A DNA stretch of 10,019 bases. Origin: Actinomycetota bacterium (GTDB lineage: Bacteria; Actinomycetota; Actinomycetes; S36-B12; UBA5976). The stretch covers positions 1-10,019 of the forward strand of contig CANKTT010000048.1 in the NCBI GenBank assembly GCA_947486505.1. The letters are read 5' to 3'. Positions 1 through 8,383 of the stretch are shown here, one piece after another. Under the pieces are notes generated by a model. It saw only the letters and a program-made list of their open reading frames with translations, was not told the DNA's origin and searched no databases. The position numbers were made by a program, and so were the translations under genes. Numbering within the stretch: position 1 is the first letter of the stretch; each line of letters opens with the position of its first letter.

Positions 1-239
1 GCAACCCGATTTAAAATTGCGCCTCGTTCTTGCGGTGACATTTGAGACCAAATTGGAAAGGCAGATTTAGCGGCAGCGACAGCTAGATCAACCTCTTTAG
101 CGCCACCACGGGAAATGTCAGCCAGAAAAGAGCCATCTATCGGAGAGTGATCTGCGAATGTGGAATCGGAGGCAATTCGTTTACCGCCGATGAAATGCCG
201 AGTATCAACCTCAACTCCAGCAACTGTTGCCAATGTCAT
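1..239 (-). CDS. Aldehyde dehydrogenase, N-terminal part (cut by window edge)
   Basis: The visible 79 residues match the N-terminus of the NAD(P)+-dependent aldehyde dehydrogenase superfamily. HFIGGKR lies at about 15-21, followed by the GGAKEVDLAVAAAKSAFPIW segment at about 45-64, where the family usually has G...EVD.AV.AA..AF..W, and a PQERGAILNRV stretch at the cut end. The feel is closest to the betaine-aldehyde, PuuC and HpaE-type subgroup, but the catalytic Cys and Glu lie outside the window, so the substrate is open. The ATG at 239-237 has an AGGGG ribosome site five bases upstream (249-245). It is divergent from the C26 hydrolase and has an island operator only 16 bases before its start. 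In context it probably oxidises an aldehyde made during breakdown of a gamma-glutamylated amine. The family call is firm; the substrate is inference. Confidence 0.9.
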   Translation of the reverse strand, partial: MTLATVAGVEVDTRHFIGGKRIASDSTFADHSPIDGSFLADISRGGAKEVDLAVAAAKSAFPIWSQMSPQERGAILNRV

Positions 240-255
240 GCCATCCCCTGAAAAG

Positions 256-273
256 TCGTTCGGGTACTAACGA
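256..273 (-). promoter_or_regulatory. Island operator 1 (ALDH / C26 hydrolase gap)
   Basis: Read on the minus strand this is TCGTTAGTACCCGAACGA, with arms TCGTT and AACGA around an asymmetric core. It matches the island consensus TCGTTCGTACCCKAACGA at every position except A for C at the sixth. It ends 16 bases before the aldehyde dehydrogenase ATG, so a bound protein would cover the start of that transcript. The likely ligand is the MarR protein encoded at 1011-1523 (inference). Confidence 0.8.
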
Positions 274-276
274 ATT

Positions 277-305
277 ACGATACGTTAAATTTAGTGATTT
301 GGGAA
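277..305 (-). promoter_or_regulatory. Possible promoter of the aldehyde dehydrogenase
   Basis: On the minus strand a TTCCCA hexamer (305-300) lies 17 bases before a TATCGT hexamer (282-277), giving usable -35 and -10 boxes. Transcription would then start at about 270, inside operator 1, a geometry that suits repression. Both boxes are imperfect, so this is tentative. Confidence 0.3.
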
Positions 306-340
306 CTGAATTCAGGTAATTCTTTCATTAGGCTGGTGAA

Positions 341-1021
341 ATGTCGTTACGTCCGAGAATCGCACTCATAGGGCGGTTTACAAACTCTGCTTCGGCGCTC
401 AGATATGAGGGAGTCGTTAGTTCAAGAGCACTTTTGGAATCTCTTTGGAATGCGGGGGCTGACCCGGTGACTCTGCTGGCAGCGCCGGAAAGCGACTGGG
501 CTCAGCGACTTAAGGGCTATCAAGGGGTGTTACTTGCAGGCGGCGGTGACATTAACCCAATTAGGTACGGTCAGACTCCAGACGCCAGTGTTTATGACGT
601 GGATGATCTGCAGGATGATTCAGACTTTGGGATAACCGAGTACGTGTTGCAACAAGGGATTCCCACCTTGGCAGTATGTCGTGGCTTACATGTTGTAAAC
701 GTTGTCCGCGGCGGCACTCTAATTCAGGACATGCCGGAAAATCATCGCCATGTCGTCCAAGAGGTAAAAGTTAGTGATTACGAATCATTTGGTTTTGTTT
801 CGGAATTGGTAGCAACTTCGTGTTACCACCACCAAGCAATTGACAAACTCGGATCTGGATTAGAAGTCCTAGGCCGTGGTCCGGATGGAACTATTGAAGC
901 CGTTGGAATTGAATCAACTGGTTGGGCTCGTGGCGTTCAATGGCACCCAGAAGATACTGCGAAATCAGATGCAAACCAACGGGGATTGCTTGCCCGACTA
1001 GTTAAAGAGGCTAGTGCTTAG
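341..1021 (+). CDS. Peptidase C26 / PuuD-like gamma-glutamyl hydrolase
   Basis: This is a class I glutamine-amidotransferase-fold hydrolase of the C26 family, which includes PuuD (gamma-glutamyl-GABA hydrolase) and folylpoly-gamma-glutamate hydrolases. Visible marks are LLAGGGDINPIRYG at about 64-77, the nucleophile elbow AVCRGLHVVN with Cys113, GGTLIQD at 124-130, the CYHHQAID segment at about 161-168, and GVQWHPE with His202 and Glu204 completing the triad. At 226 residues it is shorter than PuuD (about 254), mainly at the N-terminus. The ATG is preceded only by a weak GGTGAA ribosome site. Its 3' end overlaps the convergent marR by 11 bases. The expected job is to release glutamate from a gamma-glutamylated intermediate in the cytoplasm. 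The family is certain; the exact substrate is unknown. Confidence 0.88.
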   Translation: MSLRPRIALIGRFTNSASALRYEGVVSSRALLESLWNAGADPVTLLAAPESDWAQRLKGYQGVLLAGGGDINPIRYGQTPDASVYDVDDLQDDSDFGITEYVLQQGIPTLAVCRGLHVVNVVRGGTLIQDMPENHRHVVQEVKVSDYESFGFVSELVATSCYHHQAIDKLGSGLEVLGRGPDGTIEAVGIESTGWARGVQWHPEDTAKSDANQRGLLARLVKEASA

Positions 1022-1523
1022 CTTGCTTTTGGGAATCTACAGTGACGGTAACGGCCCGAAGTAGGTCAGCAAAGATTCCTAAATCAGATCGCTTTAAGTC
1101 AGCAACGGCTAACTGCTCGCCTTTATTAAATTCAGGAAACAATTGCTTCATCATTTTTCGACCCTTGGCCGTTAGCTTTACCAAAACCAAACGCCCGTCC
1201 TTGTTGCTTCGAGTTCTGGTGATTAGGCCACGCCCTTCAAGGGTTTGCATCACACCAGTCAAAGTAGCTTTAGAAAAACCACCCTCTTCAGCAATTACCC
1301 GAGATTCAACTGGTTCCCAAATCCAAACCACCCAAAGGACTACAAATGCGGTCCAGGATAAATCGTGCTGTGCCAAAACGGTTCGCTCTAGGTAATTGCG
1401 GACCGCGTTTGCAGCCCGGAATAAATTGGAGGCAACGGCCATTGCTTCGAAGTCAATTTTTAGATCGCCGAGGCGCTCCTGAACTTGTCGTTCCGTTTCA
1501 TCAAGCGTGTGCTGACCAGCCAT
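1011..1523 (-). CDS. MarR-family transcriptional regulator
   Basis: The protein has 170 residues, slightly longer than a typical MarR protein (about 140-150) because of a charged N-terminal extension of some 25 residues. A winged helix-turn-helix spans about 58-120: the recognition helix FSKATLTGVMQTLEGR (83-98) is followed by a wing carrying the conserved DGR at 109-111 and then LTAKGR at 117-122. Flanking helices (about 25-55 and 125-165) would form the dimer interface. The ATG at 1523 has a GAGG ribosome site four bases upstream. It is divergent from the P450 and shares a gap with operator 2, so autoregulation is likely. As the only regulator in the island, it is the natural candidate for binding all five 18-bp operators. 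MarR proteins often sense phenolic or other small ligands; the ligand here is unknown. Confidence 0.92.
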   Translation of the reverse strand: MAGQHTLDETERQVQERLGDLKIDFEAMAVASNLFRAANAVRNYLERTVLAQHDLSWTAFVVLWVVWIWEPVESRVIAEEGGFSKATLTGVMQTLEGRGLITRTRSNKDGRLVLVKLTAKGRKMMKQLFPEFNKGEQLAVADLKRSDLGIFADLLRAVTVTVDSQKQAKH

Positions 1524-1610
1524 GGAACCTCAATTTCCTAGAACCTACGCTAACTTTATCTGCTTAGTTGAAAATGATCACGGGATGGGCCAGAATCAGG
1601 TATCTTAAAA

Positions 1611-1628
1611 CTGTTCGTACCCGAACGA
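1611..1628 (+). promoter_or_regulatory. Island operator 2 (MarR / P450 gap)
   Basis: The sequence CTGTTCGTACCCGAACGA has the consensus right half intact (GTACCCGAACGA) and two changes at its left edge. It lies 28 bases before the P450 ATG. A TATCTT hexamer (1601-1606) sits just upstream as a possible -10 box, which would put the transcript start inside the operator. It also lies 88 bases upstream of marR, so it could serve both genes. Confidence 0.8.
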
Positions 1629-1656
1629 ATATTCCAACTTGTTGTGAGGTGAGTTA

Positions 1657-2907
1657 ATGTCAGCCGCTACAGATGTCAGCTTGGCAAACTTAGATTTATT
1701 CGAAAAGCAAATTCCATGGCATACCTTTGACGAGTTGCGTGCGAATAGCCCGGTGCACTGGAGTGAAGAGCCTGCACCGAATTCAGGTTTCTGGTCGTTA
1801 ACTCGGTATCAAGATATCGTTCGCGTACTTCGTGACACTGAGACTTATTCAAGCGAAAAAGGTACTGCGAATCTCGAAGAGTTAGATGAAGAGCAAATGG
1901 AAGCTCGCAAGTCAATGCTTGAAACTGACGGTATTCGTCATCGCGCATTGCGCCGGCTAATGCAAGATTCATTTACTCCAAAAGCAGTCGCTGGATATGA
2001 AACCTTCCTTCGAGGATTAACAGCAAGCACTCTTGATGATGCATTCGCCAAGGGATCCTTTGATTTCGTCAAAGAAGTCGCTGCAGATTTCCCAATTCGA
2101 GTCTTAGCTCGCCTTATGGATGTTCCTGACACTGACATCGGTCAACTCATTGCTTGGGGCAACCGCATGGTGGGTAATACCGACCCTGAGCACGCAGATG
2201 TTTTGCTAGATTCACCCGAATCTGAAAAATATCGAATGTTGCCATTTAGGTCTCCTGCAGCTTTGGAAGTTTGGGCCTATGGCGATGAATTAGCCAAGCA
2301 ACGATTGGGTGGCAATGGAACTGATATCGTCTCGACGTTGATCAACCAAACTCCTGTAGATGGCTTGCCACTGTCGACGAGGGATTTCCATGCCTATTTC
2401 TTGCTTTTGATTGTTGCTGGAAATGAAACAACTCGTCACACAATCACGCACAGCATGAATTACTTGATCGACAATCCAGATCAAATGGCACTGCTGCAAG
2501 AACGCCCTGAATTGATCGAATGGGGAGTTGAAGAAATGCTTCGCATGGCGAGCCCGGTTTATCACTTCCGTCGAACTGCAACCAAGGACACAGAGATTAA
2601 TGGTCAGGCAATTAAGGAAGGCGACAAGGTTGTTACTTGGTTCGCTTCCGGTAATCGCGATCCGGAAATTTTTGTCGACCCATATCGCATGGATGTCACT
2701 AGGAATCCGAATGAGCATATGACATTTGGTCGAGGTGGCCCACATATGTGCCTAGGTAATTCACTTGCTCGACTTGAAATAAAAATCATGTTCGAAGAAT
2801 TATTGCCAAGAATTTCTGACATTAAGCGAGTTGGCGAACTAGAGCGACTTCGCAGCAACTTCGTTAATGGAATTAAGCGCTTTCCTGTTGAAGTAACTCT
2901 TAAATAA
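1657..2907 (+). CDS. Cytochrome P450, CYP124/125/142-like
   Basis: This is a soluble bacterial class I P450 of 416 residues, the usual length. The I-helix carries the oxygen-activating AGNETT at 254-259, the K-helix ExxR is E293-M-L-R296, and the haem loop MTFGRGGPHMCLGNSLARLE (355-374) places the thiolate ligand at Cys365. The loop has nine residues from F to C (F-G-x-x-G-x-H-x-C) instead of the common eight, and the C-terminus contains RLRSNFVNGIKRFPVEV. Both features recall CYP124/125/142, which hydroxylate sterol side chains and methyl-branched lipids. The ATG has a good GAGGTGA ribosome site (1646-1652). No ferredoxin or reductase gene is in the window, so redox partners must come from elsewhere. 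In context it may hydroxylate or dealkylate a glutamate-capped amine; that role is inference. Confidence 0.93.
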   Translation: MSAATDVSLANLDLFEKQIPWHTFDELRANSPVHWSEEPAPNSGFWSLTRYQDIVRVLRDTETYSSEKGTANLEELDEEQMEARKSMLETDGIRHRALRRLMQDSFTPKAVAGYETFLRGLTASTLDDAFAKGSFDFVKEVAADFPIRVLARLMDVPDTDIGQLIAWGNRMVGNTDPEHADVLLDSPESEKYRMLPFRSPAALEVWAYGDELAKQRLGGNGTDIVSTLINQTPVDGLPLSTRDFHAYFLLLIVAGNETTRHTITHSMNYLIDNPDQMALLQERPELIEWGVEEMLRMASPVYHFRRTATKDTEINGQAIKEGDKVVTWFASGNRDPEIFVDPYRMDVTRNPNEHMTFGRGGPHMCLGNSLARLEIKIMFEELLPRISDIKRVGELERLRSNFVNGIKRFPVEVTLK

Positions 2908-3615
2908 CTAAATCAATTTAGCAATATCTCTTAAGAACGTATCAACCAATTGGTTGGTACGTTCTTTTGCTGCAGCCTGCTCAGCTTCGGTATGTGCAAG
3001 CAATACATCTGGATCTTGACCATCTTTGATAACTAGGTCACGACCACCGTTGTTGAGCCAACCTAGGAGCATCTCTGGCGTTAACTCAGGGTGGAACTGA
3101 ACTCCAAGATTCCTACCATTAGTAAAAGCCTGACTAGCTGCTGAGTTCCGCGCGATCTCTAGAGCGTCAGCAGGTAATTGCCATCTGTCGTAGTGGAACT
3201 GAAACCACGGACCAGCAGGGACTAAATCTGGACGATCGGTATGAACTACCGTCCAGCCAATTTCTGGTTTAGGTCCAGGAGCGACACTGCCACCTAAAGC
3301 CCGGGCAAGTAGTTGCCCACCGAAACAAATTCCAAAAATGGGGACATCGGTATCAATTGCCTCAGAAATGAAATCCAATTCCGGTTTCAGCCAAGCTCCA
3401 ATTCGGTCATCATCCCAAGCGCCCCAGGGTGCACCCATCGGCACAACGACGTCATAATCTGCAAGGTTTGGAAATTCTCGCTCAACATTTGGCTCATCGA
3501 ATTTCTCTGCGGGAACAACCAAGAATTGATCCACAGTAAAGCCATGGAATCTAAATCTTTCAGCCACTGGGCCAGGCGGGCTCACATGATCGTGCTCAAT
3601 GATTAGAACTCTCAT
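2908..3615 (-). CDS. Class I glutamine amidotransferase-like hydrolase
   Basis: This stand-alone class I amidotransferase (GuaA N-domain type) domain has 235 residues. The nucleophile elbow GICFGGQ gives Cys97, and VQFHPE supplies His175 and Glu177 of the triad. The oxyanion-side segment VVPMGAPWGAW lies at 57-67. No synthetase domain is fused. It is divergent from the glutamine-synthetase-like gene; the same GS-like plus amidotransferase-like pairing occurs in aniline-degradation clusters, where the amidotransferase-like partner handles gamma-glutamylanilide. A hydrolytic role on gamma-glutamyl amides is therefore plausible. Its stop codon abuts the P450 stop with no gap, and its last codons contain the P450 terminator. 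The ATG at 3615 has an AGGGCAGG ribosome site. The fold is certain; the substrate is inference. It belongs to a different subfamily from the C26 protein at 341-1021. Confidence 0.88.
   Translation of the reverse strand: MRVLIIEHDHVSPPGPVAERFRFHGFTVDQFLVVPAEKFDEPNVEREFPNLADYDVVVPMGAPWGAWDDDRIGAWLKPELDFISEAIDTDVPIFGICFGGQLLARALGGSVAPGPKPEIGWTVVHTDRPDLVPAGPWFQFHYDRWQLPADALEIARNSAASQAFTNGRNLGVQFHPELTPEMLLGWLNNGGRDLVIKDGQDPDVLLAHTEAEQAAAKERTNQLVDTFLRDIAKLI
2933..2968 (+). terminator. Terminator of the P450, inside the convergent gene
   Basis: AAGAACGTA (2933-2941) pairs with TACGTTCTT (2958-2966). The inner CAACC and GGTTG (2943-2947, 2952-2956) extend the stem around an AATT loop, with one T-G wobble (2942/2957). 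The downstream arm runs into TTTT on the plus strand only. It starts 26 bases after the P450 stop and lies wholly within the 3' coding end of the opposing amidotransferase gene. Confidence 0.75.
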
Positions 3616-3689
3616 GCCTGCCCTATTCCCATCGGAAATTTTCTTCTATTCTGCCCTAAAAAGCCCCCCAAACGATTAAAATGAAAAAA

Positions 3690-3707
3690 TCGTTCATACC
3701 CTAACGA
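3690..3707 (+). promoter_or_regulatory. Island operator 3 (amidotransferase / GS-like gap)
   Basis: The sequence TCGTTCATACCCTAACGA matches the consensus except A for G at the seventh position. Here the inverted arms extend outward to ten bases (AAAAATCGTT and AACGATTTTT). It ends 14 bases before the GS-like ATG and five bases before its GGAGG ribosome site (3713-3717). A TAAAAT hexamer (3677-3682) just upstream could be the -10 box. A separate AACGATT half site lies at 3671-3677. Confidence 0.82.
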
Positions 3708-3721
3708 TTTTTGGAGGAACT

Positions 3722-5068
3722 ATGTCGCTTGATCTTTCTGCACTTCGTGCTCAACTACAAAGCGAAAATATTGACATCCTGCGGCTTGTTTACGCTGACG
3801 TACTCGGAATCCCTCGCTCCAAAGATTTGGTCGTTAGCCAAATGGAAAAAGCCGCGGCGCATGGACCAGCTTTTTGCCAAGGCGTTTGGGTTACAAATAC
3901 CCGCGGTGGAGTTCTGGATGGCCACGGAAGTATTTCTGATGGCCTATCTGATTTCGTAAGTCGAATTGATCCAAACACAATTCGCAAACTCCCATGGGAG
4001 CCGGGAGTTGCATACGCGGTTGTGGATGCCTTCGAACCAAACGGAGACGACAATCCGGTTGCACCACGAACTGCGCTACAGCGAGTATTGAAGGAATACG
4101 AAAAGATTGGTTTAACTCCAGTAATTGGTCCAGAGCTTGAGTTCTATTTGGCTACGCAGGAGAACGATCAATGGGTGCGTGCCTTACATAGAACCGGTCG
4201 GGTTTACACCACTGGTGCAATTGTGGATCCAGACGGCACGTTCTTACACATGTTGCGCATGCTAGATCAAATGGATATCGGCGTCTTTGCGGGTAACCAC
4301 GAATTTGCTCCTGCCCAGTATGAAATCAATTTGTGGCATGGCGAAGCTTTGGAGTCAACGGACAGAACTTTCTTGTTCAAGACTGCAATCAAAGACATTG
4401 CCGTACGTCGTGGTTACAACGCGACGTTCCTCGGAAAGCCTTGGGCTGAATCTGAAGGCAGTGGCTTCCATTTGCACTTCTCAGTAGTCGACTCCAAGGG
4501 CAAGAACCAAATGCATCATGGCCAAGAGCTATCTGAAGTCGCAAATCAAATGATCGCTGGAATTCTGAGCCATGCAAATGCGCTTACTGCATTTACCAAC
4601 CCAACTATCAATGCCTTCAAACGTCTAGGACCAGACACCTTGGCGCCGAGTCGCGCTAACTGGGGCTATGACAATCGGGCGACGCTGCTTCGAGTTCCAC
4701 CTGAGCGTGGCGAGGGCACTCGACTTGAAATCCGAATCGGTGATGGCGCAGCTAACCCTTACCTGATGGTTGCTTCAGTATTGGCTGCTGGCTTGGACGG
4801 CATTAAGCAAAAAATGAAGCCGAACAAGGCTGCGGAAGGCTGGGCATATGAAGATGAAGCAGATCCACTTTTGCCTGTGACCTTCACTGCTGCACTGGAC
4901 GCGCTTGAAGCAGATCCGCTGTTTGCTGACCTCATGGGACCAACTGTTATTTCAACACACTTAACTTTGAAGCGCGATGAAATTGAGCGTTACGAAGCTG
5001 AGGTTCCAGACCCAAGCACTCGTGAGATAACTGCCTGGGAACTAGACGAATACATATGGGATTACTAG
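3722..5068 (+). CDS. Glutamine synthetase-like gamma-glutamylamine ligase
   Basis: This ATP-dependent ligase of the GS type I fold (448 residues) has the usual landmarks: GPELEF at 136-141 and HEFAPAQYEINL at 193-204 for metal and glutamate binding, GSGFHLHFS from 246 with the metal-ligand His250, NPTINAFKRL at 293-302, WGYDNR at 314-319, and LEIRIGDGAANPYL from 335. The ammonium-pocket glutamate of true GS (PGYEAP, Glu327 in Salmonella numbering) is replaced: the segment reads PDTLAP with Leu307. No Asp is visible at the Asp50 position, and the NLYDLP adenylylation motif is absent. WGYDNR is also typical of PuuA-like enzymes. It therefore most likely joins glutamate to an amine rather than making glutamine for assimilation. 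The start is fixed by GGAGG at 3713-3717. Its stop overlaps the next gene by four bases. Confidence 0.9.
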   Translation: MSLDLSALRAQLQSENIDILRLVYADVLGIPRSKDLVVSQMEKAAAHGPAFCQGVWVTNTRGGVLDGHGSISDGLSDFVSRIDPNTIRKLPWEPGVAYAVVDAFEPNGDDNPVAPRTALQRVLKEYEKIGLTPVIGPELEFYLATQENDQWVRALHRTGRVYTTGAIVDPDGTFLHMLRMLDQMDIGVFAGNHEFAPAQYEINLWHGEALESTDRTFLFKTAIKDIAVRRGYNATFLGKPWAESEGSGFHLHFSVVDSKGKNQMHHGQELSEVANQMIAGILSHANALTAFTNPTINAFKRLGPDTLAPSRANWGYDNRATLLRVPPERGEGTRLEIRIGDGAANPYLMVASVLAAGLDGIKQKMKPNKAAEGWAYEDEADPLLPVTFTAALDALEADPLFADLMGPTVISTHLTLKRDEIERYEAEVPDPSTREITAWELDEYIWDY

Positions 5069-5874
5069 ACCGGATTTGAACGGTCAGCAATTAATTTGCC
5101 ACCAGCGAAGGTAACTCCAACCTCGCGGTAGTAGCCACCAAGTATTTTCTGCACTGGAAGTATCGACGCTAGTTCGTCCCATTGGGAATCACCAAGAACT
5201 AACTCTGCGTCACCCTTCCACGGTTGTCCGAGGTCGGCATCAATACCATGCATGGTGATCAATTGATCCATGGATAGCCCGGCATCTTTAGTAATCGATG
5301 GCATGAAACGACTGTGCAACATTGCATGACCATTAACGAAGCCATTTGTTTCGGAAGGCTCGCGCAACGTCACGACTGCAGATGCAAGTCTGTGATCGTA
5401 AGCAGACAGAGTTGCGCCAAGCTTTGCTCCGGCTTCAAGGCGGGGCGAAGCCTTTCCACGATTAAAGATTCGGGTGACATGTGCTGAGCCAATTTTCTTT
5501 GGATACCCCTGATACCAACCACGAGCGATTGCAAAATCTTTTGTGACCCAAATTGCAACACAACGACTGTAAGTAACACCTTCATAAGAGCAGCGCACAA
5601 CCGCAAAAGTCTCTAGGTACTGCGAGCGAATTGGATCTAGTAATTCCGCGCCGCCTTCGCTGCACGATTGCCAGTCAGCCCAAATCAAAGCAACTGCTCC
5701 CGGTTCTTCTGGAGCTAAATCGATATCAGGCGGCAGGATGGCTCGAACATTTGCTGGGTCAGTTAAGTATTCAACGGTTAGTAGGGTGCCGCTGTAATAC
5801 CAAGGCATTTCGGGAATGATCGCGCTCTTACCAGTCGGGGTGAGCGGAGGCAGGAATCCTTGTAGATCAGACAT
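5065..5874 (-). CDS. Acetoacetate decarboxylase-family protein
   Basis: This 269-residue protein has the acetoacetate decarboxylase fold. GYPKKIG at 123-129 matches the family's Schiff-base segment, with tandem Lys126 and Lys127 equivalent to Lys115 and Lys116 of the Clostridium enzyme. A conserved-looking acidic residue, Glu88, sits in RSQYLETFAV. Family members decarboxylate beta-keto acids, or use the same lysine for retro-aldol, aldol-condensation or hydration chemistry, so the reaction is not settled by the motif. The gene overlaps the GS-like stop by four bases and is divergent from the permease. No Shine-Dalgarno is visible before the ATG at 5874; a TACGAT box (5886-5881) ends six bases ahead, hinting at a leaderless transcript. 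Operator 4 lies 23 bases upstream. It is part of the island regulon, but its place in the pathway is unknown. Confidence 0.85.
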   Translation of the reverse strand: MSDLQGFLPPLTPTGKSAIIPEMPWYYSGTLLTVEYLTDPANVRAILPPDIDLAPEEPGAVALIWADWQSCSEGGAELLDPIRSQYLETFAVVRCSYEGVTYSRCVAIWVTKDFAIARGWYQGYPKKIGSAHVTRIFNRGKASPRLEAGAKLGATLSAYDHRLASAVVTLREPSETNGFVNGHAMLHSRFMPSITKDAGLSMDQLITMHGIDADLGQPWKGDAELVLGDSQWDELASILPVQKILGGYYREVGVTFAGGKLIADRSNPV

Positions 5875-5897
5875 GCGACTATCGTAGTACGAAATAT

Positions 5898-5915
5898 TCG
5901 TTAGGGTACGAATGA
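5898..5915 (-). promoter_or_regulatory. Island operator 4 (before ADC-like gene)
   Basis: On the minus strand it reads TCATTCGTACCCTAACGA, with one change from the consensus (A for G at the third position). It ends 23 bases before the start of the acetoacetate-decarboxylase-like gene. If the TACGAT box at 5886-5881 is its -10 element, the operator covers the -35 position. Confidence 0.8.
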
Positions 5916-5948
5916 GCCAATCAAGCCCAATTCCTTAGCGACACGCTC

Positions 5949-6014
5949 AATTTGCCCAGGTTTAATCGATAGTTTTTAGAAATTTCTCTAATTTGCCCCA
6001 CAGATAGGGCAAAT
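5949..6014. repeat. ATTTGCCC repeats in the ADC / permease gap
   Basis: AATTTGCCC occurs at 5949-5957 and again at 5990-5998, 41 bases apart (about four helical turns). An inverted copy, GGGCAAAT, lies at 6007-6014, giving perfect 8-base arms (5991-5998 and 6007-6014) around an 8-base loop. The motif is unrelated to the 18-bp operator and could be a binding site for a second regulator of the permease. A 10-base palindrome, AGAAATTTCT, lies between the copies at 5978-5987. Confidence 0.45.
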
Positions 6015-6023
6015 CTGCCAATA

Positions 6024-6041
6024 TCGTTCGTATCCGTTCGA
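6024..6041 (+). promoter_or_regulatory. Island operator 5 (before the permease)
   Basis: The sequence TCGTTCGTATCCGTTCGA differs from the consensus at three positions (10, 14 and 15) and is the most diverged copy, though the outer TCG and CGA ends remain. It ends 45 bases before the permease GTG and lies 108 bases from operator 4 in the same gap. Confidence 0.68.
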
Positions 6042-6086
6042 TCTCACATCGGACGTGAATTACAGCAGTGAGCCTAGGAGGAATCT

Positions 6087-7601
6087 GTGTCAAGTAATGA
6101 AGCAAAGGCTGCCGTAGATGGCGAGGGCCTTAAAAAAGGAACGATTGGAATCTTTGGAATCGTCTTCTTCGTAATCGCAGCAGCAGCTCCAATGGCTGGT
6201 ATGACTGGCGCTGTTCCTGTCGCCATCGTATTAGGTAGTGGCGCCGGAGCACCTGGTGCTTATCTGCTGGTTGGTCTAGTGCTCGTGCTATTCAGCGTGG
6301 GTTATGCCGCTATGACGCATCGAGTAACAAATGCCGGTGCATTCTTTGCGTATGTAGGTCGTGGCCTAGGTACAAATGCTGGCGTAGGTTCAGCGTTTGT
6401 CTCGATGGTTGCTTACTTAACTGTGCAATGGGCAGTTTACGGTTTCTTCGGTGCCATTGCTGCTGGCCAAATGGCTGCGCAATTTGGAATTGACCTGCCT
6501 TGGTATGTGTGGTCACTTATTGCGGTAGCAATTGCGACTGCATTATCGATTCTTCGGGTTGATGTGGGCGCTAAGGTTCTTGGTGTTCTGATGATCGCGG
6601 AAATTCTTTCAATGTTGGTTGCCGGCATCGCTGCACTTGTAGATGGCGGACCAGAGGGTTGGAACCTTGTGGCATCATTCTCACCGAGCAGCATCTTTGC
6701 TGGTGGACTACTTGGTACTGCAGGCATCGCATTCGCATTCGCATTCGCATCCTTTATTGGATTTGAAGCAACTGCAATTTACGGTGAAGAAACCAAAGAC
6801 CCTAAGCGCTCAGTTCCGCGCGCTACCTATCTAGCAGTTGGAATCATCACTGCAATCTTTGCCATCGTTTCCTTCGGCATGATTACTGCAATGGGTGCAT
6901 CCGAAGCTGTCAACAAAACTGTTGAATGGTCATCCGTTGATGGTGTTCCATTGGCAAATCCAGCTAACGTTCTGATTACTGTGGCAAATCAGTCAGTGGG
7001 AACTTGGCTGGGAACATTAATTGGTTGGTTGATTCTTACTAGTTTGTTTGCTGCCACTGTTGCGTTCCAGAACTCGGCATCTAGGTACTTGTTTGCACTT
7101 GGTCGCGGTGGAGTTCTGCCTACATCAATGGCAAAGGTCAATGGCCGTGGCGCACCTCAGAATGCATCAATCATTACAACTGTGCTTTCTGTCTTAGTAA
7201 TTCTCTACTTCCAGCTAAATGGTTTAGATCCAATTCTGAACTTGTTCTACTGGATGAGTGGATTAGCGGTTATTGCAATCGTCTTGGTAGAAATTTTGGT
7301 CAGCTTGGCTGTAATTGTTTTCTTCTCCAAGCATGCAGAGGGCGAAGGAGTGTTTACTCGGTTAATTGCTCCATTGCTAGGTCTAATTGGATTGGCATTT
7401 GGCCTGTATCTACTGATGTCACGCTTTGCACTTCTAGCTGGTACCACTGCAACTGATGTGGACCCAACGGTTACTGCTTGGGCGCAAAGCATGACTGGAA
7501 CTGTAATCATGGCAATCCCATTTGTTGCCCTTGTTGTTGGATACCTAATTGGTCTTGCAAGCAAGGAAAATGATGAGGCAGTTAAGGATCTCGTTAGCTA
7601 G
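6087..7601 (+). CDS. APC-superfamily amino acid/amine permease
   Basis: This integral membrane transporter has 504 residues and about 12-13 hydrophobic segments, from about residue 19 to 490, with a short hydrophilic N-terminus and a charged C-terminal tail. APC family marks are the glycine- and proline-rich first helix (FFVIAAAAPMAGMTG, 27-41), EETKDPKRSVPRA at 234-246, and the NSASRYLFALGRGGVLP stretch from 329. It should import an amino acid or amine by cation-coupled transport or exchange. The GTG start is fixed by a strong AGGAGG (6076-6081) five bases upstream. It lies under operator 5 and next to the ATTTGCCC repeats, and is followed by a strong terminator. It is the likely uptake step for the island's substrate, by analogy with PuuP in putrescine use. 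A hexanucleotide repeat encodes its AFAFAF stretch near residues 215-220. Confidence 0.92.
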   Translation: MSSNEAKAAVDGEGLKKGTIGIFGIVFFVIAAAAPMAGMTGAVPVAIVLGSGAGAPGAYLLVGLVLVLFSVGYAAMTHRVTNAGAFFAYVGRGLGTNAGVGSAFVSMVAYLTVQWAVYGFFGAIAAGQMAAQFGIDLPWYVWSLIAVAIATALSILRVDVGAKVLGVLMIAEILSMLVAGIAALVDGGPEGWNLVASFSPSSIFAGGLLGTAGIAFAFAFASFIGFEATAIYGEETKDPKRSVPRATYLAVGIITAIFAIVSFGMITAMGASEAVNKTVEWSSVDGVPLANPANVLITVANQSVGTWLGTLIGWLILTSLFAATVAFQNSASRYLFALGRGGVLPTSMAKVNGRGAPQNASIITTVLSVLVILYFQLNGLDPILNLFYWMSGLAVIAIVLVEILVSLAVIVFFSKHAEGEGVFTRLIAPLLGLIGLAFGLYLLMSRFALLAGTTATDVDPTVTAWAQSMTGTVIMAIPFVALVVGYLIGLASKENDEAVKDLVS

Positions 7602-7608
7602 TCACATC

Positions 7609-7650
7609 AAATAGGAATGGGCTGCCGGAAACGGTAGTCCATTCCTATTT
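7609..7650 (+). terminator. Strong terminator after the permease
   Basis: AAATAGGAATGG (7609-7620) pairs perfectly with CCATTCCTATTT (7639-7650). The stem continues inward for seven more pairs (7621-7627 with 7632-7638, two of them G-T) to a GAAA tetraloop at 7628-7631. The result is a 19-bp stem starting seven bases after the permease stop. No long T-tract follows beyond the TTT inside the stem. It marks the right end of the island. Confidence 0.75.
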
Positions 7651-7717: not shown

Positions 7718-8383
7718 GTGACCGGCGTTGTGCATCCAGTTGGACCTGAAGAACCTCAGGTCTATTGGCGACGACGCCTAATGCTTGGACTAGCTGCACT
7801 CGTGACACTCATCGTGATATTCAGTACCCTGTCCGGCGGCGAAGATCCGGTTGCTACCGCAGCCTCCACTACCAGTTCGCCAAGTCCGGACACTGTAGTC
7901 ATGTCTCCTGAGTCAACAACAGTTCCAGGCGTTGCCGTTTCGCCAACTCCAGCGGTTCTGCAACCCACAACCCAGCCAACAGTCCCAGCCGTCGCTGAGG
8001 GCGAATGTTCTGATGCAGATACTTCAATTCGAGTAGTAGTTGATCGCGAGACGACGGCGGTTGGTGAAGGCGTCCACATCAACATGATCGTTAAGAATAT
8101 TTCTGCAAAAACTTGCAAGAGGGACGTGGGCAGTGGGGCCAATGAAGTAACAGTAATTTCTGGCCCAGCATTGATTTGGTCGACAGATCACTGCAATCCA
8201 AGTACCGATAAAGATTTAGTAGAACTTGCACCTGGGCAGGAATGGAACGTAAAGGTAGTTTGGATTGGAAAACAAACGGCCAAAGGTTGCAAAGTAAGAA
8301 ACATGGCTGAGTCTGGCGCCTATTGGGCTCATGGTAGAAATGCCAGCCTGAACAGTGACGGCGTGCAGTTCGTCGTTCAGTAA
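7718..8383 (+). CDS. Membrane-anchored extracytoplasmic protein of unknown function
   Basis: The 221-residue protein has a short N-terminal cytoplasmic part with RRR at 18-20, one membrane segment (about 21-39), a Ser/Thr/Pro-rich linker (about 45-92), and an outer domain (about 95-221) that looks beta-rich and has four cysteines at 97, 133, 159 and 191, suitable for two disulfides. It is therefore probably anchored in the membrane facing outward. The start is a GTG with no Shine-Dalgarno; TAATAC (7703-7708) lies nine bases ahead, which would suit a leaderless message. It converges on disA with seven bases between stops. In mycobacteria a membrane protein gene (Rv3587c) holds the same position beside radA-disA, and this may be its counterpart; orthology is inferred from position and architecture. 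I assign no function. Confidence 0.75.
   Translation: MTGVVHPVGPEEPQVYWRRRLMLGLAALVTLIVIFSTLSGGEDPVATAASTTSSPSPDTVVMSPESTTVPGVAVSPTPAVLQPTTQPTVPAVAEGECSDADTSIRVVVDRETTAVGEGVHINMIVKNISAKTCKRDVGSGANEVTVISGPALIWSTDHCNPSTDKDLVELAPGQEWNVKVVWIGKQTAKGCKVRNMAESGAYWAHGRNASLNSDGVQFVVQ

Follow-up and report, generated by a model that had tools for sequence, protein, structure and literature searches.

Gene content and operator of the cluster

We analyzed a 10,019-nucleotide stretch of DNA from an Actinomycetota bacterium (assembly GCA_947486505.1, contig CANKTT010000048.1; this whole stretch is referred to here as the window), in which a cluster of divergently oriented genes joins a glutamine synthetase (GS)-like ligase to a cytochrome P450, two hydrolases, and an acetoacetate decarboxylase (ADC)-fold enzyme. 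Gene identities were assigned from profile matches to Pfam and NCBIfam, with the NCBIfam equivalog cutoffs as the yardstick. At one end lies an aldehyde dehydrogenase (ALDH) gene whose first 79 codons (3 to 239, minus strand) are inside the window before the gene leaves it; the translated piece was identified by 82 to 91% identity to the ALDH genes of related loci L001 to L005 and by the family match of the full L002 gene. It is followed by a PuuD-like Peptidase_C26 (C26) hydrolase (341 to 1021, plus strand), a candidate hydrolase of gamma-glutamyl-gamma-aminobutyric acid (gamma-glutamyl-GABA) whose best NCBIfam match is PRK11366 (57 bits; cutoff, 266), and by a MarR-family regulator (1011 to 1523, minus strand) that is HpaR-like (54.8 bits; cutoff, 121), with OhrR next at 52.3 bits. 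The P450 (1657 to 2907, plus strand), proposed to hydroxylate an aromatic ring to a catechol, has CYP125MRCA (8vxi) and then CYP125, CYP268, and CYP124 as its best solved relatives. Next come a class I amidotransferase-fold hydrolase (GAT; 2908 to 3615, minus strand), a candidate gamma-glutamyl-amide hydrolase by family match and motifs; the GS-like ligase (Gln-synt_C; 3722 to 5068, plus strand), with all NCBIfam scores below the GlnA, GS-III, and PuuA cutoffs; the ADC-fold enzyme (5065 to 5874, minus strand), which is of the MppR/Sbi00515 type by its aligned lysine region and its best match to MppR (177 bits; cutoff, 380); and an APC-family permease (6087 to 7601, plus strand), identified by family match and proposed to take up the amine.

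All five copies of a 16-bp pseudo-palindromic operator, CGTTCGTACCCGAACG, found in the window at ≤3 mismatches sit in the four intergenic regions that separate divergent cluster genes: between the ALDH and C26 genes (257 to 272, minus strand, 1 mismatch), the MarR and P450 genes (1612 to 1627, plus strand, 1 mismatch), the GAT and GS-like genes (3691 to 3706, plus strand, 2 mismatches), and the ADC and permease genes, on the ADC side (5899 to 5914, minus strand, 2 mismatches) and the permease side (6025 to 6040, plus strand, 3 mismatches). The operator was first noticed as inverted repeats between intergenic regions, and its consensus was derived from the same window sites that were then counted; in 200 dinucleotide shuffles of the window the mean was 0.09 copies, and none held five. 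Across 81 sequences (80 related loci plus the window, 1.27 Mb) there were 74 copies at ≤2 mismatches, 67 of which fall between 260 bp before and 60 bp after a cluster-gene start, while five Markov controls gave 0 to 2 copies. The 80 loci are the best 80 of 162 relatives from a P450-profile scan of species genomes, and counts over the 81 sequences presuppose the P450; most are titled Microbacteriaceae, Nanopelagicales (a group common in lakes), or unnamed actinobacteria, and the cluster was found in freshwater Nanopelagicales records. The HpaR-like MarR protein would bind the operator and control these promoters. A sequence-only reading of this stretch had listed a permease, a GS-like ligase, two amidotransferase-fold hydrolases, an ALDH, a P450, and an ADC-family enzyme, all of which are present, and had placed them in one regulon, a view that the shared operator in all four divergent intergenic regions supports.

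Directly past the permease, an inverted repeat (7609 to 7650, plus strand; 19-nucleotide arms, 89% complementary, with a 4-nucleotide loop) closes the cluster and is terminator-like by position. The gap between the permease and disA encodes a 221-amino-acid protein (7718 to 8383) with no Pfam or NCBIfam match and with a relative in L002; disA and radA, the next genes, appear unrelated to the cluster.

A ring-cleavage operon in related genomes

The window covers 79 ALDH codons and nothing of the operon behind that gene. The usual order in relatives is ferredoxin reductase, small ferredoxin, a fumarylacetoacetate hydrolase-fold enzyme (FAAH), a LigB-type extradiol dioxygenase (LigB), and ALDH, followed in turn by C26, MarR, P450, GAT, the GS-like ligase, ADC, and the permease. 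The dioxygenase gene lies directly after the ALDH gene in all 57 loci with >1.2 kb beyond ALDH, and where >3.5 kb is available (49 loci), FAAH and ferredoxin reductase are present in 49 and the small ferredoxin, whose Streptomyces canus relative (57% identity) carries a ferredoxin annotation, in 48. In the 38 loci with a wide view, ferredoxin, ferredoxin reductase, FAAH, LigB, ALDH, MarR, and P450 occur in all 38, the GS-like ligase and ADC in 37, GAT in 36, and the permease in 35. Gene presence in the 80 loci was scored by per-gene identity limits, which can miss genes; the exception for both GS and ADC is L076, where a GS-like match at 42% fell under the 50% limit and was scored absent. Since the nearest relatives (L001 to L004), whose DNA is 81 to 86% identical to the window over its first 5.9 to 7.8 kb, carry the ring-cleavage operon, in all likelihood the species of the window also has the operon behind ALDH.

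The proteins of this operon resemble enzymes of homoprotocatechuate (Hpa) degradation. The L002 ALDH (L002:7122-8582) best matches HpaE (TIGR02299; 520 bits against a cutoff of 638) and has HpaE 2d4e as its closest solved chain, the dioxygenase best matches HpaD (127 bits against 316) and is closest to 3,4-dihydroxyphenylacetate 2,3-dioxygenase 8iq8, and FAAH has the HpaG C-terminal model second (190 bits against 276) and is closest to HpaG 1gtt; with HpaR at 55 of 121 bits, none of these equivalog cutoffs was reached. The dioxygenase has H12, H60, E243, and H187 in common with the six HpaD sequences compared, the first three of which we take to be the metal ligands (His-His-Glu) and the last to be catalytic, yet 23 positions that are invariant in the six HpaD and ≥95% constant in 55 cluster-type dioxygenases (L002 counted twice) hold different residues. 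Such scores and such differing constant positions are expected of a sister pathway acting on another side chain, and by these comparisons the ALDH, the dioxygenase, and the HpaG-like enzyme are sub-cutoff sisters of the homoprotocatechuate enzymes.

Several further genes accompany the cluster in places. A conserved protein of ∼500 amino acids is encoded upstream of ferredoxin reductase in L051 (L051:3058-4572) and five further loci, the L051 copy having no Pfam or NCBIfam match. A luciferase-like F420-type oxidoreductase (TIGR03619) lies in or beside the cluster in L025, L034, L051, L056, L057, L059, L061, L067, L068, L070, and L076, as well as at L087:19311-20234 and L136:11546-12490. Three-gene insertions follow the GS-like gene in L022 (L022:6407-11226, before ADC) and L045 (L045:4484-9442), the first gene being membrane-anchored by eye.

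Linkage of glutamylation to ring cleavage

Samples anchored on the dioxygenase (199 genomes of one family, 296 genomes of the class, and plasmids) do not presuppose the P450. Among the 199 genomes, which belong to the family of L008 (Lacisediminihabitans; Microbacteriaceae by its name), 23 carry LigB and 22 carry the GS-like ligase at E ≤ 1e-100; both occurred in 21, LigB alone in 2, and the ligase alone in 1 (21 of 24 with either; Fisher's test with relatedness ignored, 4e-25). The class set yielded 21 LigB hits, and 19 loci were read (G006 had already been seen, and G409 was not read); two are short contigs (L126 and L131), and three overlap earlier loci (L128 is L057, and 83% of the 40-mers of L132 recur in L059 and 64% of those of L124 in L087). 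ALDH and FAAH are present in all 19, ADC in 17, the GS-like ligase and the P450 in 16 each (one P450 being an edge fragment), and ferredoxin and its reductase in 13; hpaF, hpaH, and hpaI were detected in none of the 19.

A tblastn search of plasmids with the dioxygenase matched 46 records, 30 of which were listed, the remaining 16 matching more weakly. The 12 loci read comprise every record at ≥52% identity (five) and seven at ≤34%. The five form a separate clade (52 to 67% identity), the other 25 listed being at ≤34% and mostly annotated hpaD, and come from two phyla: S. canus, Streptomyces lunaelactis, two Embleya strains, and Novosphingobium EMRT-2. Each of them has GS-like, ADC, ALDH, FAAH, and LigB genes, in differing orders, and four have the P450 (not S. 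lunaelactis); hpaF, hpaH, and hpaI were found in none of the five. In the seven divergent loci, ADC and GS are absent, hpaH is present in six, and hpaI is present in five. LigB (52 to 67%) and FAAH (72 to 77%) of the plasmid clade are closer to their cluster counterparts than the GS-like ligase, which is 42 to 43% identical to that of the window in Streptomyces and Embleya and 33% identical in Novosphingobium. This ligase has diverged or been replaced yet accompanies LigB in all five plasmid loci, indicating that glutamylation stays linked to ring cleavage. The gene set thus recurs in other Actinomycetota, where the sequence-only reading had proposed to look for it; it is conserved in relatives and extends to plasmids of Streptomyces, Embleya, and Novosphingobium.

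We give almost no credence to the explanation that genes for amine handling and genes for ring cleavage form two modules that are neighbors by chance. L077 and L078, which lack ring-cleavage genes, speak for it and indicate that the upper and ring-cleavage halves are separable, but against it stand the operator that recurs in each of the window's four intergenic regions, the co-occurrence in 21 of 24 genomes, and the finding that a second phylum has the set too, rearranged and with a ligase at 33% identity.

Three of the records that carry the cluster (L002, L039, and L054) are metagenome-assembled genomes labeled Bifidobacterium breve; the P450 of L002 is ∼94% identical to that of the window, and the label looks wrong.

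The GS-like ligase and the candidate glutamyl hydrolases

In five listed alignments with archaeal and bacterial glutamine synthetases, the FDGSS motif around Asp50 of GlnA has no counterpart in the GS-like ligase, which also reads PDTLAP where those enzymes have GYEAP with its flap Glu. Across 65 of the 76 family members (those retained by a length filter), FDGSS occurs in none and PDT[LM]AP in 62, with 3 not matched. Losses of the Asp50 motif and the flap Glu are described for amine-glutamylating enzymes, where they may explain the non-use of ammonium, in PMC11335346; both losses, which are among the features of such ligases (GoaS), are found in the cluster ligase. At the place of the long hydrophobic loop called the 15th motif, which lines the amine pocket in GoaS enzymes, four of the five alignments with glutamine synthetases have 9 extra residues. 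The PuuA model gave 262 bits against a cutoff of 650. We propose from these features that the protein is a gamma-glutamyl-arylalkylamide synthetase. The loss of FDGSS and the flap Glu also supports, in outline, the earlier suggestion that the cluster caps an amine with glutamate, oxidizes it, and releases the glutamate.

The two amidotransferase-fold hydrolases keep their motifs throughout, CxG and QxHPE in all 67 GAT family members and CxG and HPE in all 39 C26 members. The GAT enzyme NpaA2, like AtdA2, likely hydrolyzes the glutamyl amide back, according to PMC11335346, and the GAT of the cluster may act likewise. This GAT was undetected in the S. canus, S. lunaelactis, and Novosphingobium loci. 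A C-N hydrolase gene adjoins the operon in 12 loci, and C26 is missing from 11 of them (L007, L012, L014 to L019, L021, L024, and L042), L008 having both; the L008 protein is deaminated-glutathione-amidase-like, and the C-N hydrolase likely replaces C26 where C26 is missing. At least one of GAT, C26, and the C-N hydrolase is present in 37 of the 38 wide-view loci. In the two Streptomyces loci a second ALDH gene directly adjoins that of C26, with PuuC as its best NCBIfam match in S. canus (568 bits) and S. lunaelactis (554 bits) against a cutoff of 850; by tblastn the two Embleya plasmids show the pair as well, one of them with its ALDH in pieces.

An ADC-fold enzyme proposed in place of HpaH and HpaI

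No tblastn match to hpaH, hpaI, or hpaF was found in 24 loci of the LigB clade, versus hpaH in 6 of the 7 comparison loci. At the genome level, among 19 genomes with the cluster, HpaI never passed its cutoff, three of them giving weaker matches, and HpaH passed in one, G014, on a contig other than that of the cluster. HpaH was over its cutoff in no control genome either, and the G014 match shows that the model works; the HpaF (CHMI) model was silent in the 19 genomes but also in the control genomes and hence carries no weight. An ordinary Hpa cluster was rejected because hpaH and hpaI are missing beside the genes described here. In G014, which is the genome of L048, the hpaH gene (G014:C94:48-1588) adjoins an HpaI-like gene (322 bits; cutoff, 369), and an ordinary Hpa route and the cluster may coexist there.

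The ADC-fold enzyme keeps its lysine region and GWxQG in an alignment with 4jm3, 6eej, and 4zbo. The solved relatives of the enzyme are thus MppR and Sbi00515 (4zbo and 6eej), the latter of which joins pyruvate to aldehydes with loss of water. GW[YVF]QG[YFM]PK is present in 57 of 63 family members, and the PK[KQ] lysine signature of the MppR/Sbi00515 group is found. According to PMC7820114, MppR joins pyruvate to aldehydes, and MppR-like proteins are proposed as the aldolase of an archaeal phenol meta pathway. By analogy, we propose that an MppR-type reaction run in reverse on a 4-substituted 2-oxo-3-butenoate would do the combined work of HpaH and HpaI. The previous suggestion that the ADC-like enzyme suits a keto or aldehyde intermediate is thereby narrowed to a hydratase-aldolase role.

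These observations bear on an alternative in which the cap is removed before the ring is cleaved, so that gamma-glutamyl-tyramine would be the substrate of the P450, the amine would be freed by GAT or C26, oxidation elsewhere would lead to homoprotocatechuate, and ALDH, LigB, and FAAH would then run the ordinary Hpa route. The best matches of ALDH, LigB, and MarR to HpaE, HpaD, and HpaR, the second-best match of FAAH to HpaG, and the presence of GAT in 36 of 38 wide-view loci are consistent with it, the homologs NpaA2 and AtdA2 being said to hydrolyze gamma-glutamyl amines in PMC11335346. We nevertheless regard early uncapping as unlikely: HpaH and HpaI are over their cutoffs in 1 and 0 of 19 genomes, hpaH, hpaI, and hpaF were found in none of the 24 LigB-clade loci, every Hpa-like protein is under its Hpa cutoff, and the route would leave idle both ADC and the additional ALDH next to C26.

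The P450 and the choice of substrate

The P450 scored 383 bits to the CYP125MRCA chain, which we read as an ancestral reconstruction, and 254 bits to natural CYP125. The resemblance to branched-chain hydroxylases seen earlier is thus real with respect to CYP124 and CYP125, but it does not fix the substrate. A steroid setting was dropped, as no steroid genes were recognized around the cluster in the locus annotation, though they were not specifically searched for. A cyclic amine of the Pip/Mor kind was likewise dropped on the basis of the best solved relatives (CYP125, CYP124, and CYP268), CYP151 itself not having been directly compared.

The guess that went with the branched-chain resemblance, a methyl-branched or alkyl amine, is not supported, because the operon of the relatives has an extradiol dioxygenase and an HpaG-like enzyme, both of which need a catechol. 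A route in which the P450 hydroxylates an alkyl chain and ALDH oxidizes the product appears very improbable; it would agree with the nearest solved P450 relatives and with the isopropylamine route, which follows the same logic, but the dioxygenase that lies behind ALDH in every one of the 57 loci long enough to show it requires an aromatic catechol, and a separate module fits an alkyl amine better. That module, situated between ADC and the permease in L001 (L001:14559-20077), L003, L004, and L005, with related genes in L048, L052, and L059, comprises an acyl-CoA-dehydrogenase-like gene, a GAT, a GS-like gene (26% identity), a Zn alcohol dehydrogenase (not called in L003), and a P450 (41% identity). 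With its alcohol dehydrogenase, and an ALDH too in L048 and L052, the module appears to form its own route for capped alkyl amines.

Indirect reasoning makes tyramine the likeliest substrate: it needs one hydroxylation, and most clusters hold a single P450 of this family. In S. canus there is another P450 that is unrelated (24% identity), and S. lunaelactis has the set without a P450, as if a catechol were the starting point; its decarboxylase is best matched by tyrosine decarboxylases (129 bits; cutoff, 905). Pyridoxal phosphate (PLP) decarboxylase genes of two families occur in 28 of the 81 loci. The same capped ring cleavage could instead serve an arylethylamine that is methoxylated or N-methylated, which the P450 would demethylate, or dopamine or an octopamine-like amine, a variant we hold to be somewhat less probable still than early uncapping. 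It draws on one-carbon genes beside some clusters and on the missing P450 of S. lunaelactis, but the PurU family occurs in 6 of 81 sequences only, and the single hydroxylation of tyramine matches the P450 count. The one-carbon genes are GcvT-like, FolD, and PurU genes after the S. canus cluster (L087:25181-28041) and a PurU-family gene after the GS-like gene in L054, L056, L057, L061, L068, and L070, five of which continue to ADC; it is possible that they handle units from a methylated substrate.

A proposed pathway from tyramine to GABA and pyruvate

We think it probable that the cluster serves the catabolism of a phenolic arylethylamine, most likely tyramine, with the glutamate cap retained while the ring is opened. 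The gene set, its shared operator and conservation, the tie to ring cleavage in relatives, the residue losses of the ligase, and the lack of hpaH and hpaI beside the cluster are observed; we infer each reaction, the order of steps, and the substrate from sequence. The permease would import the amine, and the GS-like ligase would use ATP to form gamma-glutamyl-tyramine, which the P450, served by the small ferredoxin and reductase of the operon, would hydroxylate on the ring to gamma-glutamyl-dopamine. The HpaD-like LigB dioxygenase would then open the ring, the HpaE-like ALDH would oxidize the semialdehyde, and the HpaG-like enzyme would decarboxylate the resulting acid. The ADC-fold enzyme, through a lysine Schiff base, would carry out hydration and a retro-aldol step that yields pyruvate and 4-(gamma-glutamylamino)butanal; the formula balance closes, with the 2-aminoethyl side chain under its glutamyl cap giving pyruvate, CO2, and this aldehyde. 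In the Puu scheme, PuuC acts on 4-(gamma-glutamylamino)butanal and PuuD on the corresponding acid. A PuuC-like ALDH would accordingly be expected to oxidize it to gamma-glutamyl-GABA, and C26 (GAT or the C-N hydrolase in other lineages) would release glutamate and GABA, the latter for a GABA transaminase, which is over its cutoff in 17 of 19 genomes.

Several observations weigh against this proposal. The dioxygenase lies outside the window itself and is placed there from relatives, FAAH matches the general FAA-hydrolase family PRK12764 (217 bits; cutoff, 444) ahead of HpaG, and the HpaI models are over their cutoffs in no control genome either. C26 is present in 17 of 38 wide-view loci; C26, GAT, and the GS-like enzyme are far under the cutoffs of characterized families; and the S. 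canus C26 matched no NCBIfam model at 1e-25. In the nearest relatives of the window the PuuC-like second ALDH is outside the cluster, with a copy elsewhere at 45 to 46% identity, and at E ≤ 1e-120 such a gene is missing from 12 of 19 genomes. In the 18 to 20 kb viewed, L120 lacks the GS-like gene and L136 lacks ADC and the P450, while L077 and L078 hold MarR, P450, GAT, GS-like, permease, and ferredoxin genes with no ring-cleavage genes or ADC in view. The solved P450 relatives (CYP125, CYP124, and CYP268) presumably act on alkyl chains, the aromatic models give the PLP decarboxylases no higher scores than those of other group II decarboxylases, S. lunaelactis excepted, and the one-carbon genes hint at a methylated substrate.

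On balance we lean, a little less firmly, toward the broader view that bacteria as far apart as lake actinobacteria, Streptomyces, and sphingomonads have in common a ring opening of a glutamyl-capped catecholamine that keeps its nitrogen, in which an ADC-fold enzyme replaces a hydratase and an aldolase in a single step and which joins the Puu scheme at gamma-glutamyl-aminobutanal, turning an aromatic biogenic amine into GABA without an amine oxidase. If so, this would be a new logic for amines of the tyramine and dopamine type (protect, open the ring, harvest GABA and pyruvate) that spares the cell the peroxide and the reactive aldehydes which amine oxidases generate, and it could supply lake actinobacteria with nitrogen and carbon. 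Standard annotation would have overlooked it because it labels the genes as glutamine synthetase, catechol 1,2-dioxygenase, or acetoacetate decarboxylase family. The cluster also gives ADC-fold aldolases a testable physiological substrate.

Comparison with known systems

No published pathway with the full gene set was found in the open-access literature searched, and the open-access matches listed for tyramine or dopamine with gamma-glutamyl or meta-cleavage included no such catabolic pathway. With the Hpa system (hpaR and hpaGEDFHI) the cluster shares an HpaD-like LigB, an HpaE-like ALDH, an HpaG-like FAA-hydrolase-fold enzyme, and an HpaR-like MarR; it differs in that its proteins are sub-cutoff, that hpaH and hpaI are missing beside it, with an ADC-fold enzyme, a P450, and a GS-like ligase there instead, and that its side chain would end in a glutamyl-capped amine.

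Putrescine is degraded in the Puu scheme by PuuP, PuuA, PuuB, PuuC, and PuuD in turn. The cluster has in common with it an APC permease, GS-like gamma-glutamylation, an ALDH, a C26 hydrolase, and the predicted intermediate gamma-glutamyl-aminobutanal, but no PuuB-type oxidase was noticed in the cluster, the aldehyde would arise from aromatic ring cleavage, and the scores for PuuA (262 of 650 bits), PuuC (348 of 850 for the L002 cluster ALDH), and PuuD (57 of 266) are all under the cutoffs.

In the routes for aniline (AtdA1-A2) and 1-naphthylamine (NpaA1-A2), a dioxygenase oxidizes the ring and the amine is lost. These systems likewise combine an amine-accepting GS-like ligase lacking Asp50 and the flap Glu with a GAT-type hydrolase and an oxygenase, whereas the cluster has a P450 and its cap would be kept through ring cleavage. 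The Ipu pathway caps, oxygenates, and uncaps isopropylamine; the logic is the same, but the substrate is aliphatic and no ring is cleaved. The Pip/Mor systems of Mycobacterium act on cyclic amines with a CYP151-type P450, a ferredoxin, and a GS-like neighbor, an association that the cluster shares, but they are not known to include a ring-cleaving dioxygenase. Gulosibacter has pipA-like P450s and glutamine synthetase genes, as reported in PMC9477822.

MppR, Sbi00515, and the MppR-like Sso1221 and Sso1222 of the Saccharolobus phenol route have the same ADC fold with its lysine region, and a pyruvate aldolase of a meta pathway has been proposed among them (PMC7820114); the cluster enzyme differs in being fixed in a regulon with glutamylation genes. 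As a whole, the genes combine capping of the Puu type with a diverged form of Hpa-type meta cleavage, and we propose that the ADC-fold enzyme takes the place of HpaH and HpaI.

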